From Kaistia dalseonensis (GTDB lineage: Bacteria > Pseudomonadota > Alphaproteobacteria > Rhizobiales > Kaistiaceae), in the NCBI RefSeq assembly GCF_030814715.1, contig NZ_JAUSVO010000003.1, positions 310,001 to 374,000 on the forward strand: a DNA stretch of 64,000 bases, given 5' to 3'. Under the pieces are notes generated by a model that was not told the origin of the DNA, searched no databases, and saw only the letters and a list, made by a program, of their open reading frames with translations. Positions 13,726 to 27,773 of the stretch are shown piece by piece (position 1 is the stretch's first letter; the number at the start of each line of letters is the position of its first letter). Made by a program: the position numbers and the translations under genes.

Positions 13726-13789
13726 CGGTCGCGAGGCGTCGGCGCCGGCTCACGGCATGCTGCAGCGCAGGCTCTGCGCATGCCGCATT

Positions 13790-13823
13790 GCTGCGATGCA
13801 ATATGGACAGATTGTATCGCAGC
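13790..13823 (+). promoter_or_regulatory. 13-bp inverted repeat, candidate operator of the 51-aa gene
   Basis: Left arm GCTGCGATGCAAT (13790-13802), 8-base spacer, right arm ATTGTATCGCAGC (13811-13823), 12 of 13 positions pairing. It sits 48 bases before the start of the small gene at 13872 and after the hisG stop, where a promoter would be expected. The regulator is not identified. Confidence 0.5.
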
Positions 13824-13871
13824 CTCAGAGGTCTATCTTGTGGGGGTTCCTTTCGTTCAAGGAGAACCGCA

Positions 13872-14027
13872 ATGTTCAAGACGCTGAAGAAGATGAGCCG
13901 GAGCTGGAACAGCTACCTGCATTATGATGCCGAGACGGAAGCGCTCAACAGCGCCGGTGACCGCATCGACGTCGAGCTGATCCACCGGAATTTCTCGAAG
14001 AACAGCCGCCGTCCTTTCGGCTACTGA
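13872..14027 (+). CDS. Small protein, 51 residues, unknown function
   Basis: Starts MFKTLKKMSRSWNSYLHY and ends RRPFGY; basic with a short amphipathic N-terminus. The ribosome site AAGGAG at 13859-13864 is well placed, and a candidate operator lies upstream. Its opening resembles DUF1127-type small proteins (MFK..K..R.W..Y), but the conserved L.DIG.. core of that family is missing, so I do not assign it. The strong ribosome site and separate upstream region support a real gene. It faces tag tail to tail, with four bases between. Confidence 0.7.
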   Translation: MFKTLKKMSRSWNSYLHYDAETEALNSAGDRIDVELIHRNFSKNSRRPFGY

Positions 14028-14030
14028 GTT

Positions 14031-14690
14031 TTATACTGGCCGAACCAGCCGCGCGCGCAGATCTTCTGCCTCGGCGCGGCAGGTGCAGCCCTCGATATGG
14101 TCGTTGACCAGCCCCATCGCCTGCATGAAGGCGTAGACGGTCGTCGGTCCGACAAAGCTCCAGCCGCGCTTCTTGAGATCCTTCGACAGGCGGATCGAGG
14201 TCGGCGATGTCGACGCGATGCTGCCACGGATAACAGAAGCCGGCCGTTCACTCGCCGGCGGCTCGAAGCGCCACACATAGGCCGCGAGCGAACCCTCCGT
14301 CTCGATCAGTTCCAGCGCCCGCCTGGCATTGTTGATCGTTGATGCGATTTTCCCCCGATGCCGCACGATGCCGGTATCGGCCAGCAGGCGTGCAACATCC
14401 GCCTCGTCGAAGCGCGCCACCTCTGCGATCTCGAAATTCGCGAAGGCTTTGCGGAAATTCTCGCGCTTGCGCAGGATCGTCAGCCAGGACAGGCCGGACT
14501 GGAACCCCTCCAGGCAGAGCTTCTCGAACAGGCGGCGGTCCTCCACGACCGGCCGGCCCCACTCATTGTCGTGATAGGCCTCGTATTCGGGCAAGCCGCC
14601 CGGCCACCAGCAGCGCGGCCGACCGTCGAGACCAAGGGCAATGCCATCGGGCAATGAGCTGGAAAGAGACATGGCGACTCGCAAGTTCAT
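14031..14690 (-). CDS. tag: DNA-3-methyladenine glycosylase I
   Basis: 219-residue base-excision repair enzyme that removes 3-methyladenine from DNA. The family start RCWW..G...YEAYHDNEWG is present near 26-45, with the Cys and His used for structural zinc, and the C-terminal zinc ligands in NDHIEGCTC near 195-203. The Glu of LCLEGFQSGLSW lies in the substrate pocket region. An internal ATG at 14672 (MSLSSS) would shorten it by six residues; neither start has a clear ribosome site. Single gene. Confidence 0.95.
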   Translation of the reverse strand: MNLRVAMSLSSSLPDGIALGLDGRPRCWWPGGLPEYEAYHDNEWGRPVVEDRRLFEKLCLEGFQSGLSWLTILRKRENFRKAFANFEIAEVARFDEADVARLLADTGIVRHRGKIASTINNARRALELIETEGSLAAYVWRFEPPASERPASVIRGSIASTSPTSIRLSKDLKKRGWSFVGPTTVYAFMQAMGLVNDHIEGCTCRAEAEDLRARLVRPV

Positions 14691-14959
14691 TGTTTGTTCT
14701 TGCCGCTATGTACCGCGCTCCCTGCCCTTCGGGCAAGCCCATGGTGCCAGCAGCGTCGGCCGAAAACCGATGCGGACCACCCTCCCCGCTCCCTGAAATT
14801 CGCCCCGCCCGACGGGAAGAGCGCAAGCCTTCGTGTTCACAACCGCGTGATTTTTGCGCCGATTGTTGCCAACTCTTTAGCTTTCCGTTGCGAAGATGGG
14901 CAGGATCGATGGTTGGGGGCACGACGTCGATCAGTTGGTCCAGAGATCTGGGGGAAAAA

Positions 14960-15577
14960 ATGTCGATGAAAAGGGTCGTGGCTGCTGCACTCATGATGGC
15001 CGCCGTGACAATGAGCTCCGGAACGGCGCATGCCGAGAACTTCTTCAAGATGCTGTTTCTCGGAACGGGCGACGTTCGACCAGTGAACCCGGTTCCCGGC
15101 GCGGCGATACCGTACAAGTACCAGCGTCAGCGCGTCCGCTATGAGACGAACGAGAAACCCGGCACCATCATCATCCATTCCGACGACAAGTTCCTCTATC
15201 TGGTCGAGGGTGACGGCAAGGCGCTGCGCTATGGCGTTGGCGTCGGTCGCGAAGGCTTCGGCTGGCGGGGCAATGTGAAGATCGGGCGCAAGGCAGAATG
15301 GCCGACCTGGACGCCGCCGCCGGAAATGCGCCAGCGCGAGCGCAAGAAGGGCCGCATTCTTCCGGTCAGCATGCAGGGCGGCCCGCAGAACCCGCTCGGG
15401 GCGCGCGCCATGTATCTCTATGATGGCGGCCGCGACACGATGTTCCGCATTCATGGCACCAGCGAGCCCTGGACGATCGGCCACAACGTCTCGTCGGGCT
15501 GCATCCGCATGGTCAATGCCGATGTGAGCGATCTCTATGAGCGCGCACCGGTCGGCACCAGGGTCATCGTTCGCTAG
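14960..15577 (+). CDS. L,D-transpeptidase (YkuD domain), periplasmic
   Basis: 205-residue exported protein. The signal peptide runs from MSMKRVVAAALMM to a cleavage site after GTAHA, near residue 25. The YkuD domain spans about 65-205 with the catalytic motif HGT (near 164) followed by SSGCIRM (near 178-184), which holds the active cysteine. Such enzymes form 3-3 peptidoglycan crosslinks or attach proteins to the wall, and are abundant in Hyphomicrobiales. The start is chosen for the signal peptide and an upstream GGGG site at 14951-14954. Its stop codon coincides with the edge of a dispersed repeat. Confidence 0.93.
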   Translation: MSMKRVVAAALMMAAVTMSSGTAHAENFFKMLFLGTGDVRPVNPVPGAAIPYKYQRQRVRYETNEKPGTIIIHSDDKFLYLVEGDGKALRYGVGVGREGFGWRGNVKIGRKAEWPTWTPPPEMRQRERKKGRILPVSMQGGPQNPLGARAMYLYDGGRDTMFRIHGTSEPWTIGHNVSSGCIRMVNADVSDLYERAPVGTRVIVR

Positions 15578-15674
15578 AGCGTTTCCGAGCGAAGTGGCAT
15601 GCGGTTCGCGTGAAGGAAACGCGACCAACCTAAGACTTAGGGCTATCCATCGATTCAAGGAAACGATGGATAGC
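15576..15674 (+). repeat. Bipartite dispersed repeat, copy 1
   Basis: Part one is a constant block whose ends GCGTTTCC (15579-15586) and GGAAACGC (15615-15622) pair, with inner arms GCGAA/TTCGC. Part two is a separate perfect hairpin, GCTATCCATCG (15642-15652) and CGATGGATAGC (15664-15674), with an 11-base loop. Between them is the small palindrome CCTAAGACTTAGG (15629-15641). A second copy with the same block but a different hairpin stem is at 35459-35561. The block resembles a repeat widely scattered in rhizobial genomes. It begins in the stop codon of the L,D-transpeptidase gene. Confidence 0.85.
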
Positions 15675-15715
15675 TCCAGACCGCACGGGCGCCGCCGGGA
15701 CCGGTTCCGCGAGGA

Positions 15716-16375
15716 TCAGCTCTTCGGCGGCGCGTAGGCCTTCATGAAGATGGCGATCGCGCTTTCGACGCGATGGGTGATCTCGGCATCCGTCGGGGTC
15801 TCCGCCACGCCGAACAGCACGCGACGCAACAGCCCGCTCTGCGAGAGCTCGACGAACTGCTGCGCCGCCAGCGTGCAATCGTCGATTACCAGGACGCCCG
15901 CCTTGACCTGGGCCTCCAGATAGACCTGAAGGTGGTCGGTGCAGAGCTGCGGGCCGGTCGAATAAAACTCGACGCCGATCTCGGGCATGCGGTTGATGAT
16001 GCCGAAGACCGTCCGCATCGCCTGCACGTAATAGGGACGCGTCAGGATGTTGCAGAGCCGGGTGCCGAACGCGCGCAGCACATTCGGCACGTCGTGATCG
16101 TCGGAATCGAGACGCACGACACGGAAGACCTCTTCCCGCTTTTCTGTCGAGATCAGTTCGACGAACAGCCGTTCCTTGTCTTCGAAGTAGACGTAGAGCG
16201 TTCCCTTCGAAACGCCGGCCGCGCGCGCGATGTCGTTCATGCTCGCGCCGTCGAAGCCCTTTTCCAGAAACACCTGCCGCGCACCCTGCATGATCTGCGC
16301 GCGCTTGGCGGGATCCTGCCCGGCCGAACTGGCTTCCTGCCCACGAGTCGTCAATTCCACATCGACGATGGCCAC
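15716..16375 (-). CDS. TetR-family repressor of the emrAB efflux genes
   Basis: TetR-type DNA-binding protein of about 219 residues. The N-terminal helix-turn-helix is MNDIARAAGVSKGTLYVYF (near residues 45-63 of this form), followed by a C-terminal ligand domain of the kind seen in efflux repressors. I choose the GTG at 16373-16375 because AGAGGA precedes it at a good distance. An upstream ATG at 16510 would add 45 residues reaching to the edge of the operator. The gene is divergent from emrA, with two operator-like palindromes between them, so autoregulation and emrAB repression are likely. Confidence 0.88.
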   Translation of the reverse strand: MAIVDVELTTRGQEASSAGQDPAKRAQIMQGARQVFLEKGFDGASMNDIARAAGVSKGTLYVYFEDKERLFVELISTEKREEVFRVVRLDSDDHDVPNVLRAFGTRLCNILTRPYYVQAMRTVFGIINRMPEIGVEFYSTGPQLCTDHLQVYLEAQVKAGVLVIDDCTLAAQQFVELSQSGLLRRVLFGVAETPTDAEITHRVESAIAIFMKAYAPPKS

Positions 16376-16514
16376 CTTGTGTCCTCTTCTGCCCGCTGCA
16401 GCGCGGGCCTGGCGCAGCTCTTGCCGTGAATCGGTGGCGCGTCCTGATTGCCAATCTAGCAACCATGGCGCCCCGATCCAATCACGTGTCGATCGAGCCA
16501 CTGCACTCAAATTT

Positions 16515-16599
16515 TTGACCGAACCGTTCGGTTCGATCTTGATTTAGGCATTTCACAGGTCTAGATCAAGCGGCAATTGACCGAACGGTTCGGTTCGAT
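16515..16599. promoter_or_regulatory. Twin TetR operators between the repressor and emrA
   Basis: Two near-copies of a 23-base segment lie at 16515-16537 and 16577-16599, each TTGACCGAAC...TTCGGTTCGAT. Their cores are perfect inverted repeats ACCG-TT-CGGT (16523-16532) and ACCG-AA-CGGT (16580-16589), 57 bases centre to centre. This is the usual operator style of TetR repressors guarding efflux genes. Confidence 0.8.
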
Positions 16600-16628
16600 A
16601 TCGCTTTCATTCCCAGTGGAGACGCGTC

Positions 16629-17864
16629 ATGGCGAAAGTTGCGCTGGTCGACGACGCCGCGGATGGCGTCGTCGCAGATATCCCGCCCGCCCTGAAGAAG
16701 ACCGCCGAGGCACCGACGCCCGCGGGCGACCGTCCGGCGGCAGAGAAGCCGGCCGCCCCGCCTGCCGGGACGACGGGCGCCAGCACGAGCCACATGCCGC
16801 CGCCCGCCAAGAAGGGTGGCCGTCGTCGCGTCATTCTCCTGGGCGTGGCCGTGATCGCCATCGCGGCCGGCGCTTATTTTGGCCATAGCTGGTGGACGGT
16901 CGGCCGCTTCATGATCTCGACCGACGATGCCTATGTCGGCGCCGACACCTCCGTTCTCGCGCCGCGCATTTCGGGCTATGTGACGAAGGTCGATGCCGTC
17001 GCCAACAGCGCCGTCAAGGCGGGTGACCCGCTCGTCTATCTCGACGACACCGAACAGAAGCTCGCCATCCAGGCTGCACAAGACCAGATCGCGTCGCAGG
17101 AAGCGGCCATCGCCCGCATCGGCCAGCAGATCACGGCCGGCCAGGCCAGCGTCGACCAGGCGAAGGCCGCCATCGCCTCGGCCAATGCCGAGGCCGAGCG
17201 CACGGCCGCCGACCTCGTCCGCACGACCCAGCTCACGCAGAGCCGCTTCTCCAGCCAGCAATCGCTGGAACAGGCGAAGGCCGCCGACGACAAGGCGAAG
17301 GCCGGCGTCGATTCGGCCAAGGCGGGTGTCGCCTCCGCCGAAGCCGCCGTCGCGGTGACCGAGGCGCAGCGCGTCGAGGCCGAACGGGCGCTCGAGCAGT
17401 ATCGGACGGCGTTGTCGCAGCGCCAGGTCGATCTCGACCACACGGTCATCCGCGCCCCGTTCGATGGCGTCGTCGGCAACCGCTCGGTCGATCCGGGTGA
17501 ATTCGTTGCCGCCGGCCAGCGCCTGCTCGCGATCGTGCCGTTATCGGCCGTCTATATCGACGCTAACTTCAAGGAGACGCAGCTCGACCGCATTCGTCCG
17601 GGCGCAACCGCGAAGATCACCGTCGACGCCGCCTCGGATGGCGAGATCGACGGCACGGTCGAGAGCATCGCGCCGGCTTCGGGCTCGGTCTTCAGCCTGC
17701 TGCCGCCGGACAATGCGACGGGCAATTTCACCAAGATCACCCAGCGCGTCCCGGTCCGGATCAAGGTTCCGGCAGAGGAAGCCGCCAAGGGTTATCTGCG
17801 TCCCGGCCTCTCCGTGACGGTCGACATCGACAGCCGCACCGGCTCGGGCGCTGCCGAGCACTGA
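16629..17864 (+). CDS. emrA: EmrA-type membrane fusion protein (HlyD family)
   Basis: 411-residue periplasmic adaptor of a tripartite drug exporter. A Pro/Ala-rich cytoplasmic N-terminus is followed by a single membrane anchor at about residues 66-88 (VILLGVAVIAIAAGAYFGHS). Then comes the lipoyl half-motif DAYVGADTSVLAPRISGYV, a long Ala/Gln-rich coiled-coil hairpin (about 140-265), and the second lipoyl half with IRAPFDGVVGNRSVDPGEF. It links the EmrB carrier to an outer-membrane channel encoded elsewhere. The promoter region carries twin TetR operators. emrB follows after a 153-base gap with a G/C-rich imperfect hairpin (17885-17933). Confidence 0.93.
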   Translation: MAKVALVDDAADGVVADIPPALKKTAEAPTPAGDRPAAEKPAAPPAGTTGASTSHMPPPAKKGGRRRVILLGVAVIAIAAGAYFGHSWWTVGRFMISTDDAYVGADTSVLAPRISGYVTKVDAVANSAVKAGDPLVYLDDTEQKLAIQAAQDQIASQEAAIARIGQQITAGQASVDQAKAAIASANAEAERTAADLVRTTQLTQSRFSSQQSLEQAKAADDKAKAGVDSAKAGVASAEAAVAVTEAQRVEAERALEQYRTALSQRQVDLDHTVIRAPFDGVVGNRSVDPGEFVAAGQRLLAIVPLSAVYIDANFKETQLDRIRPGATAKITVDAASDGEIDGTVESIAPASGSVFSLLPPDNATGNFTKITQRVPVRIKVPAEEAAKGYLRPGLSVTVDIDSRTGSGAAEH

Positions 17865-18017
17865 ACTCCCTCCTTGGAGGGACCAGAGGGGGGAAGCCGC
17901 AGCCGTCCCTACCGGCCTAGCCGCTTCCCCTCTCGACCCCTGACGAAGAAGCAGAGAACGCCGGACAAGGCCGCCTGACGACCGCCCGACGCAAACGCCT
18001 GATGGTGAAGGTGCAAG

Positions 18018-19592
18018 ATGGCCGGACCGCAGCCAAGCTTTGAACAGCCGATTATGACGCCCCGCCGCATGCTCGGCTTCGTCGCCATGTGCGTCGGCAT
18101 GTTCATGGCGATCCTCGATATCCAGATCGTCTCTTCCTCCCTCTCCGAAATCCAGGCCGGCATTTCCGCCAGCGCCACCGAGATCGCCTGGGTGCAGACG
18201 GCCTATCTGATCGCCGAGATCGTCATGATCCCGCTTTCGGGCTTTCTTGGCCGCGCGCTCTCGACCAGGTACCTGTTCGCGATCGCCGCTGGCGGCTTCA
18301 CCATCACCTCGATCGGTTGCGCGACGTCCGGCTCGATCGGCGAGATCATCGTCTGGCGCGCGGTGCAGGGCTTCGTCGGCGGCGGCATGATCCCGGCCGT
18401 CTTCGCAGCCGCCTTCACGATCTTCCCGAAGAACCGCCAGGCGATGGTCTCGGCCGTCGTCGGCCTGATCGCGACCATGGCGCCGACCGTCGGCCCGACC
18501 ATCGGCGGCTATCTGACCAATCTCTTCTCCTGGCACTGGCTGTTCCTGGTCAACGTCATCCCCGGCATCTTCGTCACCATCGGCGTGCTGAGCTTCGTCG
18601 ACTGGGATCGGCCGAATCTGAAGCTGTTGAACCAGTTCGACTTCATCGGCCTGATTACGCTCGCGGCCTTCCTGGGCAGCCTCGAATATGTGCTCGAGGA
18701 GGGTTCCGCCAATGACTGGTTCCAGGATACGGCAATCGCATCGCTCGCTGTCGTCACCGTCATTGCGGGCATCGGCTTCTTCTGGCGCGTGCTGACGGCC
18801 AAGGAGCCGATCGTCGACGTGCGCGCCTTCAAGGACCGCAATTTCGCGACCGGATCGCTGTTCTCCTTCATGCTCGGCGTCGGCCTCTACGGCCTCGTCT
18901 ATCTCTATCCGGTCTATCTCGCCCGTGTGCGCAGCTATGATTCGCTGCAGATTGGCGAGACGATGTTCGTCACCGGCCTCTTCATGATGATCACGGCGCC
19001 GATCGCCGGCAACATCGCGCAGCGCGTTGATCCGCGCGCCATGATGGCGTTCGGCCTGTCACTCTTCGCCGTCTCCTGCCTCGAACTCGTTCCGATCACC
19101 AAGGATTGGGCGTTCAGCGAACTCTTCCTGCCGCAGGCGATGCGCGGCGTCGCGCTGATGACCTGCATGATCCCGGTCTCAATGCTGGCACTCGGTACCT
19201 TGCCGCCCGAGCGGATCAAGAATGCGTCCGGCCTCTTCAACCTGACGCGCAATCTGGGCGGTGCCGTCGGCCTCGCCGTCATCACCACGGTGCTGAACAA
19301 TCGCTGGGACCTGCACATCATGCGGCTGCACGAGTCGGTGCAGTGGGGCCGCGATGCGGCGACGGAGCGACTGACCGCGATGACGCAGGGCTTCTACGCC
19401 GCGCTCGGATCGAATGCGGAACTGGCGGCGCTCAAGACGCTGTCGCTCTCAGTCAAGCGCGAGGCGCTGGTGATGGCCTTCTCCGACGTGTTCCTGCTGC
19501 TTGCCGTCATGTTCGCGGCGATCGTCCTGCTCGTCCCGCTGGCGCGCAAGCCCGCAGCACGCGGCGCTGCGGGCGGAGGCGGCGGCCACTAG
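18018..19592 (+). CDS. emrB: EmrB-type multidrug exporter (DHA2, 14 TMS)
   Basis: 524-residue proton-driven exporter of the MFS DHA2 family. The helix 1 motif FMAILDIQIVSSSLSEIQ and helix 2-3 region WVQTAYLIAEIVMIPLSGFL are those of EmrB. Motif C is GLIATMAPTVGPTIGG. About 14 hydrophobic segments are visible, and the C-terminus is Gly-rich (RGAAGGGGGH). It works with EmrA upstream. Substrates of EmrAB systems are hydrophobic drugs and uncouplers; here they are unknown. Confidence 0.93.
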   Translation: MAGPQPSFEQPIMTPRRMLGFVAMCVGMFMAILDIQIVSSSLSEIQAGISASATEIAWVQTAYLIAEIVMIPLSGFLGRALSTRYLFAIAAGGFTITSIGCATSGSIGEIIVWRAVQGFVGGGMIPAVFAAAFTIFPKNRQAMVSAVVGLIATMAPTVGPTIGGYLTNLFSWHWLFLVNVIPGIFVTIGVLSFVDWDRPNLKLLNQFDFIGLITLAAFLGSLEYVLEEGSANDWFQDTAIASLAVVTVIAGIGFFWRVLTAKEPIVDVRAFKDRNFATGSLFSFMLGVGLYGLVYLYPVYLARVRSYDSLQIGETMFVTGLFMMITAPIAGNIAQRVDPRAMMAFGLSLFAVSCLELVPITKDWAFSELFLPQAMRGVALMTCMIPVSMLALGTLPPERIKNASGLFNLTRNLGGAVGLAVITTVLNNRWDLHIMRLHESVQWGRDAATERLTAMTQGFYAALGSNAELAALKTLSLSVKREALVMAFSDVFLLLAVMFAAIVLLVPLARKPAARGAAGGGGGH

Positions 19593-19632
19593 TTGTTTGA
19601 TCACCGCATTTGACGGATTGGACTGAGGAAAG

Positions 19633-19749
19633 ATGCGCCTCGGTATCGGACCGAACAAGCCTGTCTGCGCGAGTGGCGGCGGGAAGGTGCCGGGACACAC
19701 GGGCCGTCGCTATGGCGTGGTCCCGCCGGATGCGTATCTGACGCGATGA
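19633..19749 (+). CDS. Possible 38-residue small protein (doubtful)
   Basis: A short frame starting MRLGIGPNKPVCASGGG and ending PDAYLTR, preceded by a well-spaced GAGGAAAG ribosome site. It lies in the 228-base gap between emrB and the convergent TIM-barrel gene. No family is recognised and codon evidence is too short to judge, so it may be chance. If real it could be read from the emrAB transcript. Confidence 0.25.
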   Translation: MRLGIGPNKPVCASGGGKVPGHTGRRYGVVPPDAYLTR

Positions 19750-19820
19750 TCTACACGGCAGGTCTTGCGCTTCCTTGTTCGCCTGCCTCACGCCAAGACT
19801 CGAATGCGCGCCGTCCGCGT

Positions 19821-20609
19821 TCAGCTTGTCGTTGCCTCCAATAGGGCTCGCGCGTCGCGATAGAGGTTGGCACCGCCGCTCAGCGGTGTCGCCTCGATCC
19901 CAACATGGCCGGCATAGCCCGCATCGAGCAGCCATCGCAGCTCACGGACCCAATCCTGGTTGCCTGTACCGAATTCCTGCCGCCCGGGCACATCGGCAGC
20001 CTGGATGTGCCCGACAAGCTCGAGATTGGTCCCGATCCCCCATCCGAGGGGTTCGCCGTTCAAGATCGCGTGATAGCGATCATACAGGAAGCGGACATTT
20101 GGACGGTCCAGCCGGCGGATGAGATCGAGCGCAGTCATCGAATCCGACAGCAGGGCGTTCGGCCCCTCAAACTGGCGGTTGACCACCTCCACGAGCAGCT
20201 CGACTGGCTCGCCGGCGACGGCATCCGAGGCGCGGAGAAGCGCCTCGGAGGCCATCGCTCTCTGGGCCGCAATGTCCCGATCCGGCAGGATATCGCCAGC
20301 CAGCACGACGATCTTCGGCACGCCGAGTTCGGAGGCGACCTTGGCCGTATCGGCAACGCGACGGACGAATTCGGCATGCGATGCGGGGTCGGCAAGCTGG
20401 CACTTGTCGCGCCAGTGCTCGGCGCAGATCGTGAGCAGCTGCGTGTTGGTCTCGTCGAGAACCCTCGCGAGATCAGGAAGCGGCTTGTCGCGCCAGTCCC
20501 AGATCTCGACGGCCGGAAATCCAGCGTCCGCCGCCGCGCGGACCCGGTCGGAAACCGACGGGCCAGCCTCCGCGAAGGCCAGCTCGATGCAGACGCTGAA
20601 ATCGATCAC
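19821..20609 (-). CDS. TIM-barrel isomerase-like protein (hydroxypyruvate isomerase family)
   Basis: 262-residue member of the xylose-isomerase-like TIM-barrel superfamily (AP_endonuc_2), nearest in length and pattern to Hyi. It starts at a GTG whose TGA overlap with the upstream stop (20606-20608) couples the two genes. Likely metal ligands are the Glu of LLVEVVNRQ, the Asp/His of FLYDRYHA, the His of HIQAADVPGR and the final Glu of VGIEATP. It is the last gene of the five-gene sugar operon. Within this context it may isomerise or cleave a sugar derivative; hydroxypyruvate as substrate is not supported by the neighbours. Confidence 0.85.
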   Translation of the reverse strand: MIDFSVCIELAFAEAGPSVSDRVRAAADAGFPAVEIWDWRDKPLPDLARVLDETNTQLLTICAEHWRDKCQLADPASHAEFVRRVADTAKVASELGVPKIVVLAGDILPDRDIAAQRAMASEALLRASDAVAGEPVELLVEVVNRQFEGPNALLSDSMTALDLIRRLDRPNVRFLYDRYHAILNGEPLGWGIGTNLELVGHIQAADVPGRQEFGTGNQDWVRELRWLLDAGYAGHVGIEATPLSGGANLYRDARALLEATTS

Positions 20610-21526
20610 GACCGCGCGCGCTCGACGACCGCCTTGCCGGCCAGAAGCGCCGCGACCGGGTCCCGGGCGGCGTCGAGCTCGAGCAGGACGATATCGCGTC
20701 CAGGCGTCGCGAGCATCGCCTTCGACCAGCCGCTCCAGTCGACGACGCCCGCGCCGAAATCGGCCATGAAGCGCTGCTGCTGCAGGAAGATGGTCTCGTC
20801 GATCACGAGATTCTCCTCGATCGGGCCGACCGCGTCCTTCCAATGGGCCAGAATGATGCGCTGGTCATAGCGCGACGCGACGCGGACGGGATCACCGCCG
20901 CCGAGTGTGATATGGCAGGAATCCGGGCAAAGCCCGACATAGCGCGGGTCGGTGAGCGACATGAAGAGATCGATGTCGCGCTCATACCAGAGCGCACTGT
21001 TCGATTCGGTATGAACCGCGAGACGGATGCCCTGCTTCTCGATTGCCTCGCCGATCGCATGCGCGATACCCGCCTTGTGGCTCATGAAGGCCGCATCGAT
21101 GAAGAGCGGCGGCCGGACGCCGACCGTGCGGCGCATCGGGAGTCCCGTGACGAGCAGGCTGCCGCCCGCTTCGGCGACGAAGGCAGCCCGCGCCTCGGCA
21201 TCCGCGATGATCGCGCCGAGATCGGCCCCGTCCGCCCAGGCCGGCGCGTCCGCCATGAAGGCGCTGACGACGCTGAGCCCCCGGCTCGCGAGCGTCTCGC
21301 GAAAGGCCTTCGCGCTGCCGAAAGCCTTGAGAACATTGCCGATGCTGCCGGGGCCGAAGGTCAGCTCGATACCCGTCACGTCTGTTTCGGCGAGGGTGGC
21401 CATCACCTTGTCCCAGAAGGCATCCGGCTTCGCGGCGGCGAAGGCCTCGAGCTCGGCGCCGGATGAAAGCCCCCAGAATCCCGGCTGATAGAAGGTGATC
21501 ATGTCGGTCGCGTAGATGGCGGGCAT
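20606..21526 (-). CDS. Sugar-phosphate isomerase/epimerase-like TIM barrel (IolE superfamily)
   Basis: 306-residue TIM-barrel protein of the AP_endonuc_2 superfamily, which includes inosose dehydratase and keto-sugar epimerases. Start at MPAIYATDMITFYQPGFWG. Candidate metal and acid residues lie at GIELTFGPG, LAVHTESNS, LCPDSCHI, IILAHWKD and VLLELDAA. The operon context is a CUT1 sugar importer upstream and a second TIM-barrel gene downstream, with four-base overlap. A longer frame to 21784 lacks family character in its first 86 residues. Exact reaction unknown. Confidence 0.85.
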   Translation of the reverse strand: MPAIYATDMITFYQPGFWGLSSGAELEAFAAAKPDAFWDKVMATLAETDVTGIELTFGPGSIGNVLKAFGSAKAFRETLASRGLSVVSAFMADAPAWADGADLGAIIADAEARAAFVAEAGGSLLVTGLPMRRTVGVRPPLFIDAAFMSHKAGIAHAIGEAIEKQGIRLAVHTESNSALWYERDIDLFMSLTDPRYVGLCPDSCHITLGGGDPVRVASRYDQRIILAHWKDAVGPIEENLVIDETIFLQQQRFMADFGAGVVDWSGWSKAMLATPGRDIVLLELDAARDPVAALLAGKAVVERARS

Positions 21527-21570
21527 CGGAAGTCCTCTCTTGCGGGATAATTCAGGCGAAGCGTGATCGG

Positions 21571-22401
21571 CTATTTCAGCCCCGTCGCTGCGATACCGCG
21601 GACGAAATAGCGCTGCAGGAACAGGAAGAGCACGAGCACCGGCAGCAGGACGATGATCGCGCCGGAAAGCAGCAGGCCAAATTCGGTCGACTTCGCGCCC
21701 TGCGAGGCGACGGCGAGGCCGACCGGGAGCGTGAAGATGTCCTGGTTCTGCGCCACGATCAGCGGCCAAAGAAAGTAGTTCCATGAATTCAGGAAGGTGA
21801 TGATCGCGACGGTGGCGAGCGCTGGGCCGACCAGTGGCAGGAAGATCGTGAAGAAGATGCGGAATTCGCCGGCCCCGTCGAGCCGCGCCGCCTCGAGCAG
21901 TTCGTTCGGCACGGAGAGCGCGAACTGGCGCATGATGAAGACGCCGATCGGCATGACCGCAATCGGCAGGAAGATGGCGAAGAGCGTGTTCAGCAGCCCC
22001 ATCTGCACGATGATGAAGAAGGACGGCACGAAGAGCGCGATATAGGGGATCATCATCGCGGCGATGATGCAGCCGAAGACGAAGCCGCGGCCGCGGAACG
22101 GAATCTTGGCGAGCGCATAGCCTGCGAGCGCGGAGAAGAAGAGGTTCGAGACGACGGTGAGCGTCGAGACGATCAGCGAATTGCCCAGATAGGTCCCGAA
22201 CTGGCGATGCGTGAACAGCTCGACGAAATTGCTGAAATCCGTGAAGCTCTCCGGTAGCCAGGCGCCGGGCGCGGCGAGGATTTCCGCCTGCGACTTGAAG
22301 GCGCCGAAGAAGACCCAGGCGAATGGCAGCAGCATCACCGCCGCGACGAGGGTCAGTATCCCATAAAGCGCGAGGCTGCCTGCGGTCCGCTCCTCGTTCA
22401 T
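21571..22401 (-). CDS. Carbohydrate ABC transporter permease (MalG type)
   Basis: 276-residue CUT1 inner-membrane permease with six hydrophobic segments. The EAA loop that docks the ATPase is EAARLDGAGEFRIFFTIFLP near 170-189, and the C-terminus FLQRYFVRGIAATGLK is the standard MalG ending. The ATG overlaps the stop of the MalF-type gene (ATGA). The TIM-barrel gene follows after 44 bases. No ATPase gene is in the cluster. Confidence 0.95.
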   Translation of the reverse strand: MNEERTAGSLALYGILTLVAAVMLLPFAWVFFGAFKSQAEILAAPGAWLPESFTDFSNFVELFTHRQFGTYLGNSLIVSTLTVVSNLFFSALAGYALAKIPFRGRGFVFGCIIAAMMIPYIALFVPSFFIIVQMGLLNTLFAIFLPIAVMPIGVFIMRQFALSVPNELLEAARLDGAGEFRIFFTIFLPLVGPALATVAIITFLNSWNYFLWPLIVAQNQDIFTLPVGLAVASQGAKSTEFGLLLSGAIIVLLPVLVLFLFLQRYFVRGIAATGLK

Positions 22402-23300
22402 TGGCTCGTCCTCAGCATGCGAAGCTGCAGGATACCGAGCAGCGCGACGATGATCAGCATCACGTAGGAGCCGGCCATCGCGGCGGCGATGTTGCCATGG
22501 CCGAACTGTTCATAGACCCAGAGCGCGACGGAGCGCGTCGCGCCGAGCGGCCCCCCCTTCGTAAGAAGATAGGGCTCGTCGAAGATGTTCATGTAGGAGA
22601 CGGTCATCAGGACGGTGACGAGCAGCGTCGCCGGCTTCAGCAGCGGCAGCGTGATGTAGAGGAAGCGCTTGCGCGCCGAAGCGCCGTCGATCGCTGCCGC
22701 CTCGTGCACGTCGCCGGGGATAGCCTGCAGGCCGGCCAGGAAGAGCACCATGCAGGTGCCGACATTGCGCCAGGCCGTCAGCAGAATGACGGTGGTGATC
22801 GCCATGTTCGGATTGCCAAGCCAGTTCGGCCCCTGAAGGCCAAGCTCGGCGAGGAAGGTGTTCACCGGCCCGCGAAGCGTGAAGGCGTACTGCCAGATCA
22901 CGGCGGCCGCGACGATGTTGGTGATCACGGGCAGATAGAAGGCCGCGCGATAGGTGGCGCGCAGCCTCTTGATGCCGCTGTTCAGCGCCAAGGCCAGCGC
23001 GAGGCCGATCGCCATGGTCAGCGGCACGCCGACGACGACGAAGATCCCCGTCGTGACCAGGGATTTCAGGAAGCCGGCATTTGTCAGGACGCGGGCGAAG
23101 GTCTCGAAATAGGTGAAGTGCACATCAAGCGGATGGCGGATATCGGCGACGCCGATATCCGTGAAGCTGTAGATGAGCGCGATCACCGCCGGAATGGCCG
23201 TGAAGACGAGGAAGATGACGAGGAAGGGGGAGACGAAGGTCCAGCCGATGGTCGCCTGCCACAGGCTGGGCCGCTCGTGTCCGATATCGGTCTGGCTCAT
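22398..23300 (-). CDS. Carbohydrate ABC transporter permease (MalF type)
   Basis: 300-residue CUT1 permease. Six hydrophobic segments are seen, starting with FVSPFLVIFLVFTAIPAVIA. The ATPase-docking loop is EAAAIDGASARKRFLYITLP, near residues 203-222. It pairs with the overlapping MalG-type permease. The upstream binding-protein gene is separated by 130 bases containing a strong hairpin, likely reducing permease relative to binding protein. Confidence 0.95.
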   Translation of the reverse strand: MSQTDIGHERPSLWQATIGWTFVSPFLVIFLVFTAIPAVIALIYSFTDIGVADIRHPLDVHFTYFETFARVLTNAGFLKSLVTTGIFVVVGVPLTMAIGLALALALNSGIKRLRATYRAAFYLPVITNIVAAAVIWQYAFTLRGPVNTFLAELGLQGPNWLGNPNMAITTVILLTAWRNVGTCMVLFLAGLQAIPGDVHEAAAIDGASARKRFLYITLPLLKPATLLVTVLMTVSYMNIFDEPYLLTKGGPLGATRSVALWVYEQFGHGNIAAAMAGSYVMLIIVALLGILQLRMLRTSQ

Positions 23301-23391
23301 CGTTTTGGCTCCCCGATGTCCGCCGTCGCGGGGTGAGGCGTAAGCACCTCAGGAGATCGAATGCAGATGCGCAGAAGGTGCGGCGGCAGAA

Positions 23392-23418
23392 AGCCGGGAG
23401 AGCATCACTCTCCCGGCT
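23392..23418 (-). promoter_or_regulatory. Intercistronic hairpin after the sugar-binding protein gene
   Basis: Perfect 10-bp stem AGCCGGGAGA / TCTCCCGGCT with a 7-base loop, 12 bases after the binding-protein stop in the minus-strand transcript and before the permease genes. Such hairpins commonly protect or partly end the transcript so that the binding protein is made in excess. A weak T-rich run (TTTCTG) follows. Confidence 0.7.
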
Positions 23419-23430
23419 CGCAGCAGGGGC

Positions 23431-24696
23431 TTACTTCGTGCCGAGCCCGGCGGACTCGGCAAAGGACTGGACATCGTCGAGAACCTGCTTGGCGGAGGCC
23501 TGGCCACGGGCGACGAGTTCCATCTGCTGGCCCATATAGGTGCCGACCTGGTTCCAGGTGGGCACCTGGGGAATGTCGACCGCCGTCTGCAGGGCCTGAC
23601 GCTCGGCGTCCAGCAGCGGATTGCCGGCGATTGCCGGATCATCCCACGCAGACTTGACCGCTGGCAGGCTGCCGAAGGCCTTGTACCAGGCAACCTGGAC
23701 TTCCGGCTGCGTCAAGTAGCGCACGAGCTTCCAGGCGGCGTCCGGATTCTTGCCGTCCTTGAGCACGCCGAGACTGCCCGAACCGAGCGCGGAGAAGCTG
23801 CCGGCGGGACCGGCGGGCATCAGCGCCGACGCGAGCTTTGCGTTGACCCAGTCCTGGCCGTTCGCCTGCACCAGCCACTGCTCGAACCATGGCCCGATAT
23901 CCTTGCTGGCGATCTCGCCCGAGGTGAACCACGGCACCGTGTCGAGGAATTTCGGCCCGTCGGGCGAGGCGAGGCCTTCGGTGAACAGCGAGCCCCAGAA
24001 TTCGAGCGCCTTGATATTGGCCTCGGAATTGATGGTCCACTGCGTCTTGTCGGCGTTCAGGAAGCTGCCGCCGTTCTGGTGGACGAATTCGTTGAGCCCC
24101 TGGGCGTTGTAGATGTCGTAGCCGACATCGGCCGAAATGCCCCAAGTCGCGCCCTGGGCCTTCATCGCCTTGGCGAAGGTCTTCAGCTCGTCCCAGGTCT
24201 TCGGCGCGTCGAGGCCGGCCTTTTCCGCGAGATCCTTGCGATACTGGAACGTGGTCGCATAGGCGTCCCACGGCACGCCATAAGCCACGCCGTCCTTGAC
24301 ATTCGTCTCATAGGCGCTGGCAAAGAAATCGTCAGGCTTCACCAGCCCGTCGGGCACCGGCGCGAAAGCGCCCGTCGCCATGAGGCTCGCCTGGCTCTGC
24401 GAAAAGAGGCGCACGACATCGGGCACCGTACCGGCGGCGATGGCGGTCAGCAGCTTGGCGTCGGCCTGATCCGAGGGAATCTGCGTGATCTGGACCTTGA
24501 GATCGGGATTGGCCTTCTCGAAATCGGCAAGGAAGGCGGGAAGCTTGTCGCCCTCGGCGCCGCCGATCCAGATCTGGAGCGTACCGGTCGCGGGCGCTGC
24601 GTCGATCGGTGCGGCGATGGCGCCGCCGGCGAGCATGGCCGGGAGAGACGTCACCGCCAGCAAGGCGGCAGAATGGACGATGCGGTTGATGAACAT
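23431..24696 (-). CDS. Carbohydrate ABC transporter extracellular binding protein (SBP_bac_1)
   Basis: 421-residue periplasmic sugar receptor of CUT1 importers. The signal peptide ends at GGAIAA, about residue 29. The family core is recognisable as LQIWIGGAEGDKLPAFLADF, then FEKANPDLKVQI and the hinge element VPWDAYATTFQYRKD. Late DAAWKLVRYLTQPEVQ is typical. It is the first gene of a minus operon with MalF/MalG-type permeases and two TIM-barrel enzymes. The ligand is probably an oligosaccharide or glycoside, by class only. Confidence 0.93.
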   Translation of the reverse strand: MFINRIVHSAALLAVTSLPAMLAGGAIAAPIDAAPATGTLQIWIGGAEGDKLPAFLADFEKANPDLKVQITQIPSDQADAKLLTAIAAGTVPDVVRLFSQSQASLMATGAFAPVPDGLVKPDDFFASAYETNVKDGVAYGVPWDAYATTFQYRKDLAEKAGLDAPKTWDELKTFAKAMKAQGATWGISADVGYDIYNAQGLNEFVHQNGGSFLNADKTQWTINSEANIKALEFWGSLFTEGLASPDGPKFLDTVPWFTSGEIASKDIGPWFEQWLVQANGQDWVNAKLASALMPAGPAGSFSALGSGSLGVLKDGKNPDAAWKLVRYLTQPEVQVAWYKAFGSLPAVKSAWDDPAIAGNPLLDAERQALQTAVDIPQVPTWNQVGTYMGQQMELVARGQASAKQVLDDVQSFAESAGLGTK

Positions 24697-24785
24697 GGAA
24701 CCCTCTGTCTGGAAGCCGGGATAGGCATGCAGGTCAGGTCCTTCGGCCAGCTAATTTTCTTGTTTCCGTGGACCAGATTGATTTG

Positions 24786-24797
24786 GCAATCGATTGC
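24786..24797. promoter_or_regulatory. LacI-type operator palindrome in the divergent sugar promoter
   Basis: GCAATCGATTGC is a perfect 12-bp palindrome with the central CG typical of LacI/GalR operators. It lies in the 264-base region between the divergently transcribed binding-protein and GMC genes, with an AT-rich stretch beside it. The lacI-type gene two genes away is the obvious regulator. Apart from this site and AT-rich promoter-like sequence, nothing else is seen in 24697-24960. Confidence 0.65.
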
Positions 24798-24960
24798 TAT
24801 CGCGGCATTGATTGCATATGCTCTTTTTGTACGCAAGCGGGATTTATGCCCAAGCCATAGGCGGCAGCGCTTCGGTGCCGCCGCCTTTTTCTGGCCATCC
24901 CGCCTCCTTCTGCCGGCATCCCTCGGGCGTCGGCAGCGCATCGGAATGGAGCAAGCCGCG

Positions 24961-26616
24961 ATGGCGGATGTTGAATTTGACGCCCTGGTAGTCGGGTCGG
25001 GAGCGGCCGGGATGTTTGCTGCCCGCGAATTGACGGCTCAGGGCCTTTCGGTCGTGCAGATCGAGGCGGGACCGAAGATCGGGCCCGCCCATTTCGACGC
25101 GACGAAGAACCCGCGCCAGACGGAGATCAATCTCTGGCAAAGGGCCAAGGCGACGGCGCTCGGCCAGGCCATCCAGGCCCGCGCCGCCTTCTTTGACGGA
25201 CGGATGCGCCGCCTCTTCGTCAGCGACCGGCAGAACCCCTATTCGACGCCGCCCGACGCGCCCTTCCTCTGGATTCGCGGTCGCCAGGCCGGAGGGCGCA
25301 CCCACACCTTCGGTCGCGTGCTGGTGCGCTGGACGGATGACGACTTCAAGATGCGCAGCCGCACAGGCAAGGGCGTCGATTGGCCGATCGACTACCGCGC
25401 TCTGGAACCCTATTATGAGGAAGTCGAGCGCGTACTGCAGCTCTACGGCCAGGTCGAAGGCGTACCGACCATGCCGGACAGCATCTATGCGCACCGGTCG
25501 GAACTGACCGAGGCCGAACACCTCTTCAAGCAGGCGGTCGAAACGCGATGGCCGGAGCGCCGTGTCGTCACCTGGCGCTATCTCGGGCCGGAACCGACAC
25601 GCGTGCTGACGCCGATGCGCGATGCGCTCGCCAGCGGGCGATTGGATATCCGCTACGAGACGATCGCTAGGAAGATCCTCACCGACGAGATCGGCACACG
25701 AGCCATCGGCGCCGAGGTGATCAACACGCGCACAGGCCAGGTCGAGACATTGCGCGCGCGGTCGGTCATCGTCTGCGCCTCGCCGATCGAGAGCATAAGG
25801 CTGCTGCTGAACTCGGCATCGCCAAGTCATCCGAACGGGCTCGCCAATAGTTCGGGTGCCCTTGGACGCTATTTCATGGACCAGGTGCCGATCGTCGCGG
25901 CGGGCGTCTTCCCGCGGACGCGCGGCACTTCCACGGCCGACACCGCGCCGACAGATCCCTTCTACGGGCCGTCGGGCGGCATCTTCCTGCCACGCTTCAT
26001 CGGCGAGGACGGCGTCTCCGGAACCGGCGACTACGCGTTCCAGGGGTCGGTCGGTCGCATTCCGCCTTCGGCCTCGGGCCTGTCACGGTTCAACTTCTTC
26101 GGATTCAGCACGATGGAGCCAGACGCCGACAACCGCATCACCCTCAATCCCAACCGCAAGGATCGCTGGGGCATTCCGATCCCGCATATTCGCTGCAAGA
26201 TGGGCCCGGTCGATACGGAGACGGCGAAGCGAGCCATGGCTGCGCTCGAAGAGACGGCCGAGGGCGCCGGCTGCGAAGTCGAGTTCGTAGGCTCGCCGCT
26301 CGGGCTCAATGAAAAAGGTCGGGGCGCCTATCCCGATGCGGACTGGTTCAGCCGCACGGCCTTCCGCGCGCTCTTCCGCCGCACGATCGCCATGGGCGCC
26401 GCGATCCACGAGAGCGGCGGTGCGCGGATGGGGGCGAACCCGGCGGAGTCTGTGCTCGACACCTACAACCGTAGCTGGGACGTGCCGAACCTTCTCGTCA
26501 CCGACGCCAGCGCCTTTGCCGGCAGCGGCGTCGCCGGCACGACGCTCACGATCATGGCGATGACGGTTCGTGCCTGCCGACGCCTCGCCGCGACCTTGAA
26601 GGAGGGCGATGGCTGA
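24961..26616 (+). CDS. GMC-family FAD oxidoreductase
   Basis: 551-residue flavoenzyme of the glucose-methanol-choline family, expected to oxidise a sugar hydroxyl. The FAD-binding motif VVGSGAAGMFAAREL is at residues 9-23, with the Glu of IEAG closing the dinucleotide fold. The GMC C-terminal domain shows HESGGARMG and NLLVTDASAFAGSG near 515-527. The catalytic His of HESGG is kept, but the usual NPTLTI motif reads AGTTLTI, so the second catalytic Asn is replaced. No Tat or Sec signal is visible, so it appears cytoplasmic. An alternative ATG at 24946 would add five residues. It is divergent from the importer operon and co-directional with the LacI gene. Confidence 0.9.
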   Translation: MADVEFDALVVGSGAAGMFAARELTAQGLSVVQIEAGPKIGPAHFDATKNPRQTEINLWQRAKATALGQAIQARAAFFDGRMRRLFVSDRQNPYSTPPDAPFLWIRGRQAGGRTHTFGRVLVRWTDDDFKMRSRTGKGVDWPIDYRALEPYYEEVERVLQLYGQVEGVPTMPDSIYAHRSELTEAEHLFKQAVETRWPERRVVTWRYLGPEPTRVLTPMRDALASGRLDIRYETIARKILTDEIGTRAIGAEVINTRTGQVETLRARSVIVCASPIESIRLLLNSASPSHPNGLANSSGALGRYFMDQVPIVAAGVFPRTRGTSTADTAPTDPFYGPSGGIFLPRFIGEDGVSGTGDYAFQGSVGRIPPSASGLSRFNFFGFSTMEPDADNRITLNPNRKDRWGIPIPHIRCKMGPVDTETAKRAMAALEETAEGAGCEVEFVGSPLGLNEKGRGAYPDADWFSRTAFRALFRRTIAMGAAIHESGGARMGANPAESVLDTYNRSWDVPNLLVTDASAFAGSGVAGTTLTIMAMTVRACRRLAATLKEGDG

Positions 26617-26720
26617 GCGATGCACAGCGCGTCCCTTCCTGCCAAACGCCGGCCGGAGCGCTATAAGGGACCCCACGATCTGCAATGATTCCTCCTGGGG
26701 CGCGGGAAAGGCGGCGAAGA

Positions 26721-27773
26721 ATGCCGAAACAGACGGGTATCAGGGCGCCGGGGCCCTCGATCACTGATGTCGCGCGTGAGGCCGGCGTCGCGACCTCGAC
26801 GGTGAGCCGGGCTCTGACGATCCCCGGCCGCGTCGCCGAGCCGACCCGCCTCAAGGTCGAGGCGGCGGCGCGCAAGCTCGGCTACACCGCCAACCAGACG
26901 GCGCGTAATCTGCGTGTCGGCGTCCCGCGCACGATCATGATCGTGCTTCCCGACGAGATCTATATCGGCGCCTCGCAGACCGTTTCCGAGGTGCTCCGGG
27001 CGACGGCCGAAGGCCTCACCGACCGCGGTTTCTCGCTTCTCATCGCCAATGTCTCCCGAGCGGCCGACACTGACGCGCATATCCTCTCGGTCGCGCAGGG
27101 GGGAACCGTCTCCGGCGTGCTGCTCATGGCGAGCGATATGCCGAAGGCAGAGGGCCGCAGCCTCGCCGACACCGGGCTTCCCATCGTCTCGCTGCATTTC
27201 GATCTGTCCGGCGAGGGCGTGCCGAGCGTCGTGAGCAATGATCACGACGCCATCGCCGAGGCGACGCGGGCGCTGGTCGCGCTCGGTCACCGGCGCTTCC
27301 TCTATATTCGCGGCACGCTCGGCAACTATCACGAACGCGAGCGCCTCGCGGGCGTCCGCGATGCACTCGCCCAAAGCGGCCTGCAGGAAGGCGCACTTCA
27401 CCTCAGCCAAGGCGACTTCAACTTCAGCGGCGGCATTGCGGCGGCGAAGGATTTCCTGGCCCTCCCCGCGGACGAGCGGCCAACGGCCGTGGTCTGCGCG
27501 AATGACGATATGGCCATCGGCTTCATGCGCAGCGTCGTCGATGAGGGTGTCCGAATTCCCGAGGACGTCTCGGTGATCGGCTTCGACGGGGCGGCCGTCG
27601 CCCCCTTCCTGACACCGGCCCTTGCGACCATCCAGCAGGATACGCCCGGACTCGGACGCCGGGCCGCGACGATCCTGATGGACATGGTTCTTGGCGAGCA
27701 ACTGCACAACGAGCAGCGCTTCGTGGTGCCCGCCACCCTCGTCCTGCGCGAAAGCGTCGGGCCGTTGCTGTAG
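26721..27773 (+). CDS. LacI-family transcriptional regulator of the sugar cluster
   Basis: About 350 residues. The N-terminal helix-turn-helix TDVAREAGVATSTVSRAL with a hinge helix (RKLGYTANQTARNLR) precedes a periplasmic-binding-protein-like sensor domain (SNDHDAIAEATRALVALGH, then VCANDDMAIGFM and VIGFDGAAVAPFL). I start at MPKQTG (26721), preceded by a GGCGGCGAAG stretch; an ATG at 26685 would add 12 residues. It lies 104 bases after the GMC gene on the same strand. It probably binds the palindrome at 24786-24797 and responds to the imported sugar. Confidence 0.92.
   Translation: MPKQTGIRAPGPSITDVAREAGVATSTVSRALTIPGRVAEPTRLKVEAAARKLGYTANQTARNLRVGVPRTIMIVLPDEIYIGASQTVSEVLRATAEGLTDRGFSLLIANVSRAADTDAHILSVAQGGTVSGVLLMASDMPKAEGRSLADTGLPIVSLHFDLSGEGVPSVVSNDHDAIAEATRALVALGHRRFLYIRGTLGNYHERERLAGVRDALAQSGLQEGALHLSQGDFNFSGGIAAAKDFLALPADERPTAVVCANDDMAIGFMRSVVDEGVRIPEDVSVIGFDGAAVAPFLTPALATIQQDTPGLGRRAATILMDMVLGEQLHNEQRFVVPATLVLRESVGPLL

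Follow-up and report, generated by a model that had tools for sequence, protein, structure and literature searches.

The window analysed here is a 64,000-nucleotide stretch of Kaistia dalseonensis (contig NZ_JAUSVO010000003.1, positions 310,001-374,000, assembly GCF_030814715.1; genome 5.18 Mb). Within it we studied a divergent gene cluster that encodes a GMC flavoenzyme, two PF01261 TIM-barrel proteins (TIM1 and TIM2), an importer and a LacI-family regulator. An initial annotation, made from the letters alone, had proposed that the flavoenzyme oxidises an imported glycoside and that the two barrels, acting as a pair, cleave or isomerise the product. The list of open reading frames and the domain scans found all seven genes where that annotation had placed them and in the families it had named, and the operator it had claimed between the divergent units is real. 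The features are, in window coordinates:

19821-20609, reverse strand: TIM1, an accessory Hyi/OtnI-like PF01261 protein (domain and family scans)
20606-21526, reverse strand: TIM2, a PF01261 protein and predicted keto-glycoside beta-eliminase of the IolE / 3-keto-beta-glucoside 1,2-lyase type (family scans, profile, alignments)
21571-22401, reverse strand: CUT1-type permease, BPD_transp_1 (domain scans)
22398-23300, reverse strand: CUT1-type permease, BPD_transp_1 (domain scans)
23431-24696, reverse strand: solute-binding protein (domain scan, PDB relatives)
24784-24799, no strand: operator of the LacI type, TGGCAATCGATTGCTA, in the gap between the two divergent units (motif scans)
24961-26616, forward strand: GMC flavoenzyme, predicted to act as a glycoside 3-oxidase/dehydrogenase and belonging to a clade of its own (domain scans, tree)
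26685-27773, forward strand: LacI-family regulator with a probable start at 26721 (domain scans, starts of relatives)

The TIM genes, the permeases and the binding protein run leftward, the GMC and LacI genes run rightward, and the operator lies between these halves. The genes of TIM1 and TIM2 share 4 bases at 20606-20609. LacI probably starts at Met 26721 rather than at 26685, because the proteins of its relatives begin there. As the initial annotation had reported, genes for a kinase, a glycoside hydrolase or an NAD-dependent sugar dehydrogenase were not seen in 19821-27773, where the open reading frames were inspected by eye and the seven proteins were scanned. A tblastn search with two Gfo/Idh references (1e-6) gave zero matches in window positions 10001-40000. 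The nearest solved relatives of the binding protein are 3uor, 5ysb (Lin1841) and 7x0i (CbpB), all of them sugar binders. No ATP-binding cassette (ABC) ATPase gene was found near the importer by tblastn; its ATPase would have to be encoded at another genomic site.

The cluster was compared with relative loci or sequences carrying GMC-type genes, which are labelled L with a number. The GMC protein passed the cut-offs of both superfamily domains (PF05199, 79.6 vs 24.6 bits; PF00732, 28 vs 23 bits). In a tree of 28 rows, 18 form one group with support of 100/99, which we call the GMC clade. Its nearest neighbours are a pair of sphingomonad proteins, at 87/79, and, at a moderate 81/61, three enzymes that are PF13618-associated or similar. 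E. coli BetA, a choline dehydrogenase, lies far from the clade; on this tree, with BetA as the reference, a choline or alcohol oxidase identity, which the initial annotation had named as a refuting outcome, is rejected. Because BetA sits on a very long branch, trust is limited to the tight inner GMC clade.

The catalytic His is retained in every clade row (H483 in the window protein) and aligns with His 492 of L029 and His 490 of L087. According to PMC4650693, FAD-GO of Rhizobium sp. GIN611 uses His493 in oxidising the 3-OH of many glycosides. A Gly (G526 in the window) is found in 18/18 clade rows at a position where 10/10 outgroup rows carry Asn. The catalytic pair of PsG3Ox, an enzyme outside our alignment, is given as H440/N484 in PMC10646112; of this His-Asn pair, the clade keeps the His and lacks the Asn. 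The protein also failed the NCBIfam pyranose_ox test (44.8 bits vs a cut-off of 544.9), and by both tests it is not a pyranose oxidase of the CarA/G3Ox type, a point on which the initial annotation needs amending. FAD-GO and GlycDH were compared by proxy, the GIN611 sequence itself being outside the tree: the clade falls outside the PF13618-associated enzymes L029, L087 and L035, is about 30% identical to these proxies, and they carry Asn at its Gly position. No obvious signal peptide was seen by eye, and the enzyme is probably cytoplasmic. Its AlphaFold model was useless, with a predicted local distance difference test score of 39.9.

The GMC gene is patchily distributed. It was found in 3 of the 61 genomes searched (own included, all in Kaistia), in 10/397 genomes of the order, in 5/398 genomes of the phylum at E <= 1e-60 (the distant outgroup L029 being among these five), in 14 of 75 genomes of the genus Devosia, and in 3/292 genomes of a sphingomonad-type order at 1e-100, two of these being only about 36% identical. 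A contig of Kaistia soli DSM 19436 matches the GMC gene at the same position (C5:23415) as the GMC gene of the same-genus genome G001. Plasmids were sampled as 60 evenly spaced rows of 435 matching records. Twenty of the 60 rows cover nearly the whole GMC protein at 52% identity or more, the next whole-length row has 31%, and a fragment with 68% identity over 10% of the query makes up one more row. The clade is thus sharply bounded among the sampled plasmid records. It is common on the plasmids of legume-associated Rhizobium, and there a plant glycoside is a candidate natural substrate.

Architectures were counted by tblastn over 29 loci, of which 28 were assessable since L058 lies at a contig end. 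Type A comprises eight loci (the window, L006, L009, L007, L022, L052, L053 and L059), in which TIM2 and the importer face LacI and GMC and the importer operon has no ATPase. In the 14 type B loci (L008, L023-L026, L030-L033, L054-L057 and L060, the last with broken frames), TIM2 stands with a binding protein, permeases and, in 14/14, an ATPase gene; the GMC gene is at the end of the operon or, in Devosia, after LacI on the opposite side. On the Rhizobium plasmids the clade occurs with TIM2 alone. Type C loci carry other barrels: one with an HPH motif in L027 and L061, and one like the O-glycoside beta-eliminase AtOGE (PDB entry 8bvk) in L062 and L046. The L062 barrel matches 8bvk at 1.7e-47 and that of L046 is 88% identical to it, so that the AtOGE-like pairing is seen at two loci, both of the genus Devosia. 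A fourth kind of partner is found on plasmid pSA2 of Novosphingobium resinovorum (L034:7788-17965), where a clade member with 52% identity to the window GMC lies in a C-deglycosidase (CGD) operon with the order TonB receptor, GMC, major facilitator superfamily (MFS) gene, CGDB, CGD alpha, lactonase, Gfo/Idh and a second TIM barrel, followed by aromatic-ring dioxygenase and gallate dioxygenase genes. In total, a TIM-barrel gene was found beside the GMC gene in 27/28 loci. Gfo/Idh was matched at 1e-6 in L034 and, only at the outer edges, in L053 and L062. Gene content, clade membership, residue patterns, the operator described below and this swapping of partners are all direct results of computation.

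In Devosia, an exchange between the two divergent halves seems to have taken place. In L054-L057 the importer and TIM2 are of type B, LacI and GMC are nearer to type A, and the operator is kept. The mixed types of L054 and L057 imply that TIM2 and GMC do not always move as a pair. In a Mantel-type test with 15 loci, r was 0.87 between GMC and TIM2 and 0.93 between GMC and LacI, and 0 of 2000 permutations reached either value. This signal of co-divergence is weak because the identities also track species relatedness. One genome of the genus Devosia (G788) holds two clade GMC genes, one with TIM2 and a guanine deaminase (L057) and one with the HPH barrel (L061).

The relatives of the flavoenzyme and of the type B importer bear on one alternative, namely that the substrate of GMC is an aldose or ketose in free form, oxidised in the manner of an FAD glucose or fructose dehydrogenase and that the barrels isomerise or dehydrate the keto-sugar. 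Among solved structures, phmmer ranks highest for GMC the entries labelled glucose dehydrogenase (5e-24) and fructose dehydrogenase large subunit (3e-23); pyranose oxidases, 7dve and 7qf8, match less strongly. The entry 7dve, a CarA-type enzyme, is labelled 6'''-hydroxyparomomycin C oxidase in the PDB. A type B binding protein (L031), too, resembles glucose-binding proteins: it is nearest to 5xpj (3e-81) and 5dvf (1e-80), whose label is that of an ABC sugar transporter's binding protein, and also matches the glucose-binding protein 2b3b (2e-27). Such FAD dehydrogenases act together with a small subunit, however, and its family, PF13618, was not found in the Kaistia genome by a profile search whose control was positive. 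It was not found in 19 of the 22 clade-bearing genomes (this one and 18 of 21 others), and its hits in the other three are on other contigs or 264 kb from GMC. The small subunit of L029 gave zero matches among the 29 loci. On these searches, the GMC enzyme probably works without it. Barrel types that cleave glycosides are also among the clade's neighbours, and we judge the oxidation of a free sugar improbable.

TIM2 was searched against PDB sequences with a profile built from 14 TIM2 proteins, which gave 12 matches at E <= 0.1. These were two IolE entries (3cny at 8e-14, the other at 9e-10), five barrels of unknown function (best 9.5e-7), the 3-keto-beta-glucopyranoside-1,2-lyases 8tcd (1.6e-5) and 8tct (4e-5), 8tcs of the same entry series (within 1.3e-5 to 4e-5), the 2-hydroxy-3-keto-glucal hydratase 8ro4 (0.0028) and AtOGE 8bvk (0.013). 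The sole NCBIfam match was IolE (TIGR04379), below its cut-off (67.3 vs 290 bits). By these scores TIM2 is nearest to IolE, then to the 3-keto-beta-glucoside lyases. In Foldseek, the predicted TIM2 structure (a moderate model with a score of 68.9 and residues 201-276 under 50) placed the BT1/AL1 lyases 8tct, 8tcd and 8tcr at ranks 1-3, followed by an uncharacterised barrel (4), IolE (5) and AtOGE (12). The initial annotation had proposed structure prediction as a check on the barrels; on this moderate model it favoured the lyases, and C-deglycosidase entries came lower, at ranks 19 (8qrz) and 27 (DgpB-C).

The predicted metal ligands of TIM2 (H172, D202, H228 and E283) are invariant in 14/14 proteins, and they line up with the matching columns of L062's AtOGE-like barrel, AtOGE itself not being directly aligned. 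According to PMC10628242, the ligands of AtOGE are His132, Asp163, His189 and Glu233, and its catalytic residue is His134. TIM2 therefore has the His/Asp/His/Glu site of an O-glycoside beta-eliminase or 3-keto-glucoside lyase, but two residues past the first ligand, where the catalytic His would stand, all 14 proteins have Glu174 (motif HTE). His occupies this position in the barrels of L027, L062 and L029. The barrels that replace TIM2 read HPH (L027, L061) or HNH (L062), and CGD alpha reads EVH. The lyase-series entry 8tcs has HNH and the IolE entries 3cny and 9zmu have HHH, unlike TIM2.

The C-deglycosidases themselves are a poorer fit. With a limit of E = 1, BLAST listed no match between the window TIM2 and CGD alpha; the orthologue in L031 reached 0.31. 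The initial annotation had seen no C-deglycosidase small subunit and had called the cluster a possible variant of those systems. The absence was borne out, as PF19906 was found in 0 of 23 genomes (own included, one outgroup) in a search positive only in the control, L034. The variant reading fell with the BLAST result, although C-deglycosidase structures do occur further down the Foldseek list. For the window, a C-deglycosidase minus one subunit is rejected on these BLAST and PF19906 searches.

IolE eliminates from a keto ring. This closest family raises the alternative of a cyclitol pathway, in which GMC would oxidise inositol or O-methyl-inositol to an inosose, the IolE-like TIM2 would dehydrate it and TIM1 would isomerise a later intermediate, with no glycosidic bond cut. 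The prevalence of the clade on plasmids of legume-associated Rhizobium would suit such a pathway as well as the TIM2 matches to IolE (TIGR04379, 3cny) do. We nevertheless find it doubtful: TIM2 scores far under the IolE cut-off, the clade is elsewhere paired with CGD- and OGE-type barrels, and the type B binding protein is of the glucose-binding type. Beside the listed loci, no further gene named for inositol catabolism was seen, in the course of work that included no dedicated search.

TIM1 missed the NCBIfam cut-offs for hydroxypyruvate isomerase and 2-oxo-tetronate isomerase (125.3 vs 353.45 and 95.1 vs 325 bits). E141, D177, Q203 and E239 are invariant in 6/6 sequences and are, by the pattern of the Hyi family, its likely metal ligands. 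By tblastn, TIM1 is present in seven of the eight type A loci (missing in L052) and in none of the 14 type B loci, which makes it accessory. The two barrels are therefore not the equal pair first envisaged, as 15 of the 22 type A and B loci yielded no match to the Hyi/OtnI-like TIM1.

One operator motif is common to types A and B. GCAAWCGWTTGC occurs in all 22 of their loci, in one or two copies with no further occurrence in the stretches concerned, but in 0/7 of the other loci; 17 of the 22 had initially been recognised as palindromes. The genome-wide scan covered exact matches. Exact TGGCAAWCGWTTGCYA has a single match in the K. dalseonensis genome, at the operator itself. Genome-wide, it was found in 14/17 genomes and was confined to the GMC locus in each, and the reversed control gave zero; the three genomes without it are two of type C and one with a lone GMC gene. 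This confinement suggests that LacI is probably a regulator dedicated to the GMC locus.

Taken together, the locus is probably a dedicated catabolic route for a glycoside, in which GMC oxidation is followed by beta-elimination through TIM2. The CUT1-type importer would bring in a hexosyl compound, and GMC would oxidise a ring hydroxyl, most likely at C3 to judge from its clade and context, to a ketone. The ketone would acidify the C2 proton, which the metal-dependent TIM2 would take, perhaps with Glu174 as the base instead of His, to expel the aglycone by beta-elimination. A further role of TIM2 may be hydration of the 2-hydroxy-3-keto-glycal so formed, which has been suggested for LgdB2. In lineages that carry TIM1, this barrel probably isomerises a later keto-sugar, and LacI on its locus-only operator probably represses both divergent units until an inducer arrives. 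We infer this chemistry, together with the oxidation position, substrate, electron acceptor, regulation and downstream reduction.

This glycoside route is favoured because one GMC clade swaps partners among TIM2 (22 type A and B loci), the HPH barrel, the AtOGE-like barrel and the CGD pair. Further grounds are the match of TIM2 to lyases by profile and Foldseek, its agreement with L062 in the ligand columns, the GMC tree and conserved His, the sugar/glucose-type binding protein of L031, the confined operator, and analogous pathways in PMC10628242 and PMC7676230. The oxidise-then-beta-eliminate chemistry is a prediction well supported by context. This core of the initial annotation gained independent backing from the clade's association with CGD- and AtOGE-like barrels, from TIM2's closeness to IolE and then the lyases, and from the separation of GMC from E. 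coli BetA; the equal pair and the C-deglycosidase variant do not hold.

Several observations weigh against the glycoside route. GMC has no usual second catalytic residue, its tie to the PF13618-associated enzymes is moderate, and their glycoside 3-dehydrogenase role is itself putative. TIM2 has IolE inosose dehydratase, and no glycoside lyase, as its best sequence relative; it lacks the catalytic His of AtOGE, and its Foldseek ranks are soft since the model is only moderate. No TIM-barrel neighbour was found for the GMC gene of L028, and many loci are closely related, so the 28 are not independent events. Searched with the two Gfo/Idh references, the core of the type A and B loci yielded no keto-sugar reductase gene, unlike the Agrobacterium and levoglucosan operons.

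The Devosia loci suggest another substrate class. A full guanine deaminase (GuaD) gene lies between LacI and GMC in L007 (8506-9942), L022 (11496-12893), L052 (7828-9261) and L057 (8222-9607); L058 (5235-5852) has a contig-end fragment before GMC, and L059 (near 10990) has a decayed remnant. The best solved relatives of the locus GuaD are guanine deaminases, and it is found beside both importer types. The full copies are the second, more divergent GuaD in their four genomes (378-382 vs 541-547 bits). These genes would fit redox-elimination of a purine-like N-glycoside, such as a nucleoside or a plant purine/pyrimidine glucoside, in which TIM2 with its Glu base would expel the base from the oxidised sugar, with no hydrolase or phosphorylase, and in Devosia the second guanine deaminase would deaminate that base as part of one unit. 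In L007, a neighbouring leftward gene set (12043-18278) encodes adenosine deaminase, an ABC importer and nucleoside hydrolase, and L022 has a weak PF01156 protein (43.6 bits) 6.7 kb away. Several points make the chance of an N-glycoside substrate slim. GuaD is at the locus only in the genus Devosia (6/29 loci), and seven genomes without a locus copy, Kaistia included, have a second guanine deaminase elsewhere (393-412 bits), so the locus GuaD may be a relocated paralogue. At 1e-6, none of the other 28 loci gave a match to the adenosine deaminase or the nucleoside hydrolase of L007. A CGD operon is among the contexts of the clade, and the nearest relatives of the binding proteins are sugar binders. 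Among the matches listed in open-licence literature, no title concerned a ketonucleoside or nucleoside oxidase pathway of this kind.

The general chemistry of the glycoside route is already known. The Agrobacterium operon, as described in PMC10628242 and PMC4650693, has the order GlycDH/FAD-GO, AtOGE, AtHYD and Gfo. It shares with the route predicted for our locus FAD-dependent glycoside 3-oxidation by a GMC enzyme with the catalytic His, then a Mn-dependent TIM-barrel beta-eliminase, and L062 and L046 pair a clade GMC with an AtOGE-like barrel. In the window, by contrast, the GMC clade differs as far as the proxies tell (about 30% identity, Gly for Asn), TIM2 with Glu for the catalytic His replaces OGE, and a local Gfo reductase was not found. 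C-deglycosidase (CGD/CGE) systems likewise use GMC oxidases, such as CarA/G3Ox (PMC10646112), before elimination by a TIM barrel. The Novosphingobium operon holds a clade homologue, but no CGDB was found in the window genome, and by the tests made the window enzymes are not members of the CGD or pyranose-oxidase families. The levoglucosan Lgd operon of Bacillus smithii (PMC7676230) shares oxidation, two barrels annotated as sugar-phosphate isomerases and an ABC sugar importer; its NAD-dependent levoglucosan dehydrogenase (LgdA) and its reductase (LgdC) have no counterparts found at the window locus. With two altered active-site positions and no local reductase found, this GMC and TIM2 pair looks like an undescribed version of the known chemistry. 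A search of open-licence literature, which is not proof of absence from print, found no paper on a guanine deaminase-GMC-isomerase-LacI set, on Rhizobium GMC with a sugar phosphate isomerase, or on a Kaistia glycoside-GMC; among the matches listed, one title concerned a 3-keto-C-glycoside lyase. A single GMC clade with four kinds of TIM-barrel partner offers a test case for the evolution of oxidise-then-eliminate deglycosylation, and the Asn-to-Gly and His-to-Glu changes raise the question of which residues such enzymes need.

Around the cluster, further genes were noted by eye. Just to its left (16629-19592), the window has HlyD-like and MFS genes that resemble an EmrAB-type efflux pair. The nearest Kaistia relatives, L006 and L009, carry at about 12900-20900 a second LacI/sugar-importer cluster with a fucosidase-type glycoside hydrolase-like gene, where the window has an MFS-type gene. 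The L006 record is titled Mesorhizobium sp. BR1-1-16; its GMC position (144826) is the same as in the same-genus genome G008, and it is probably Kaistia.

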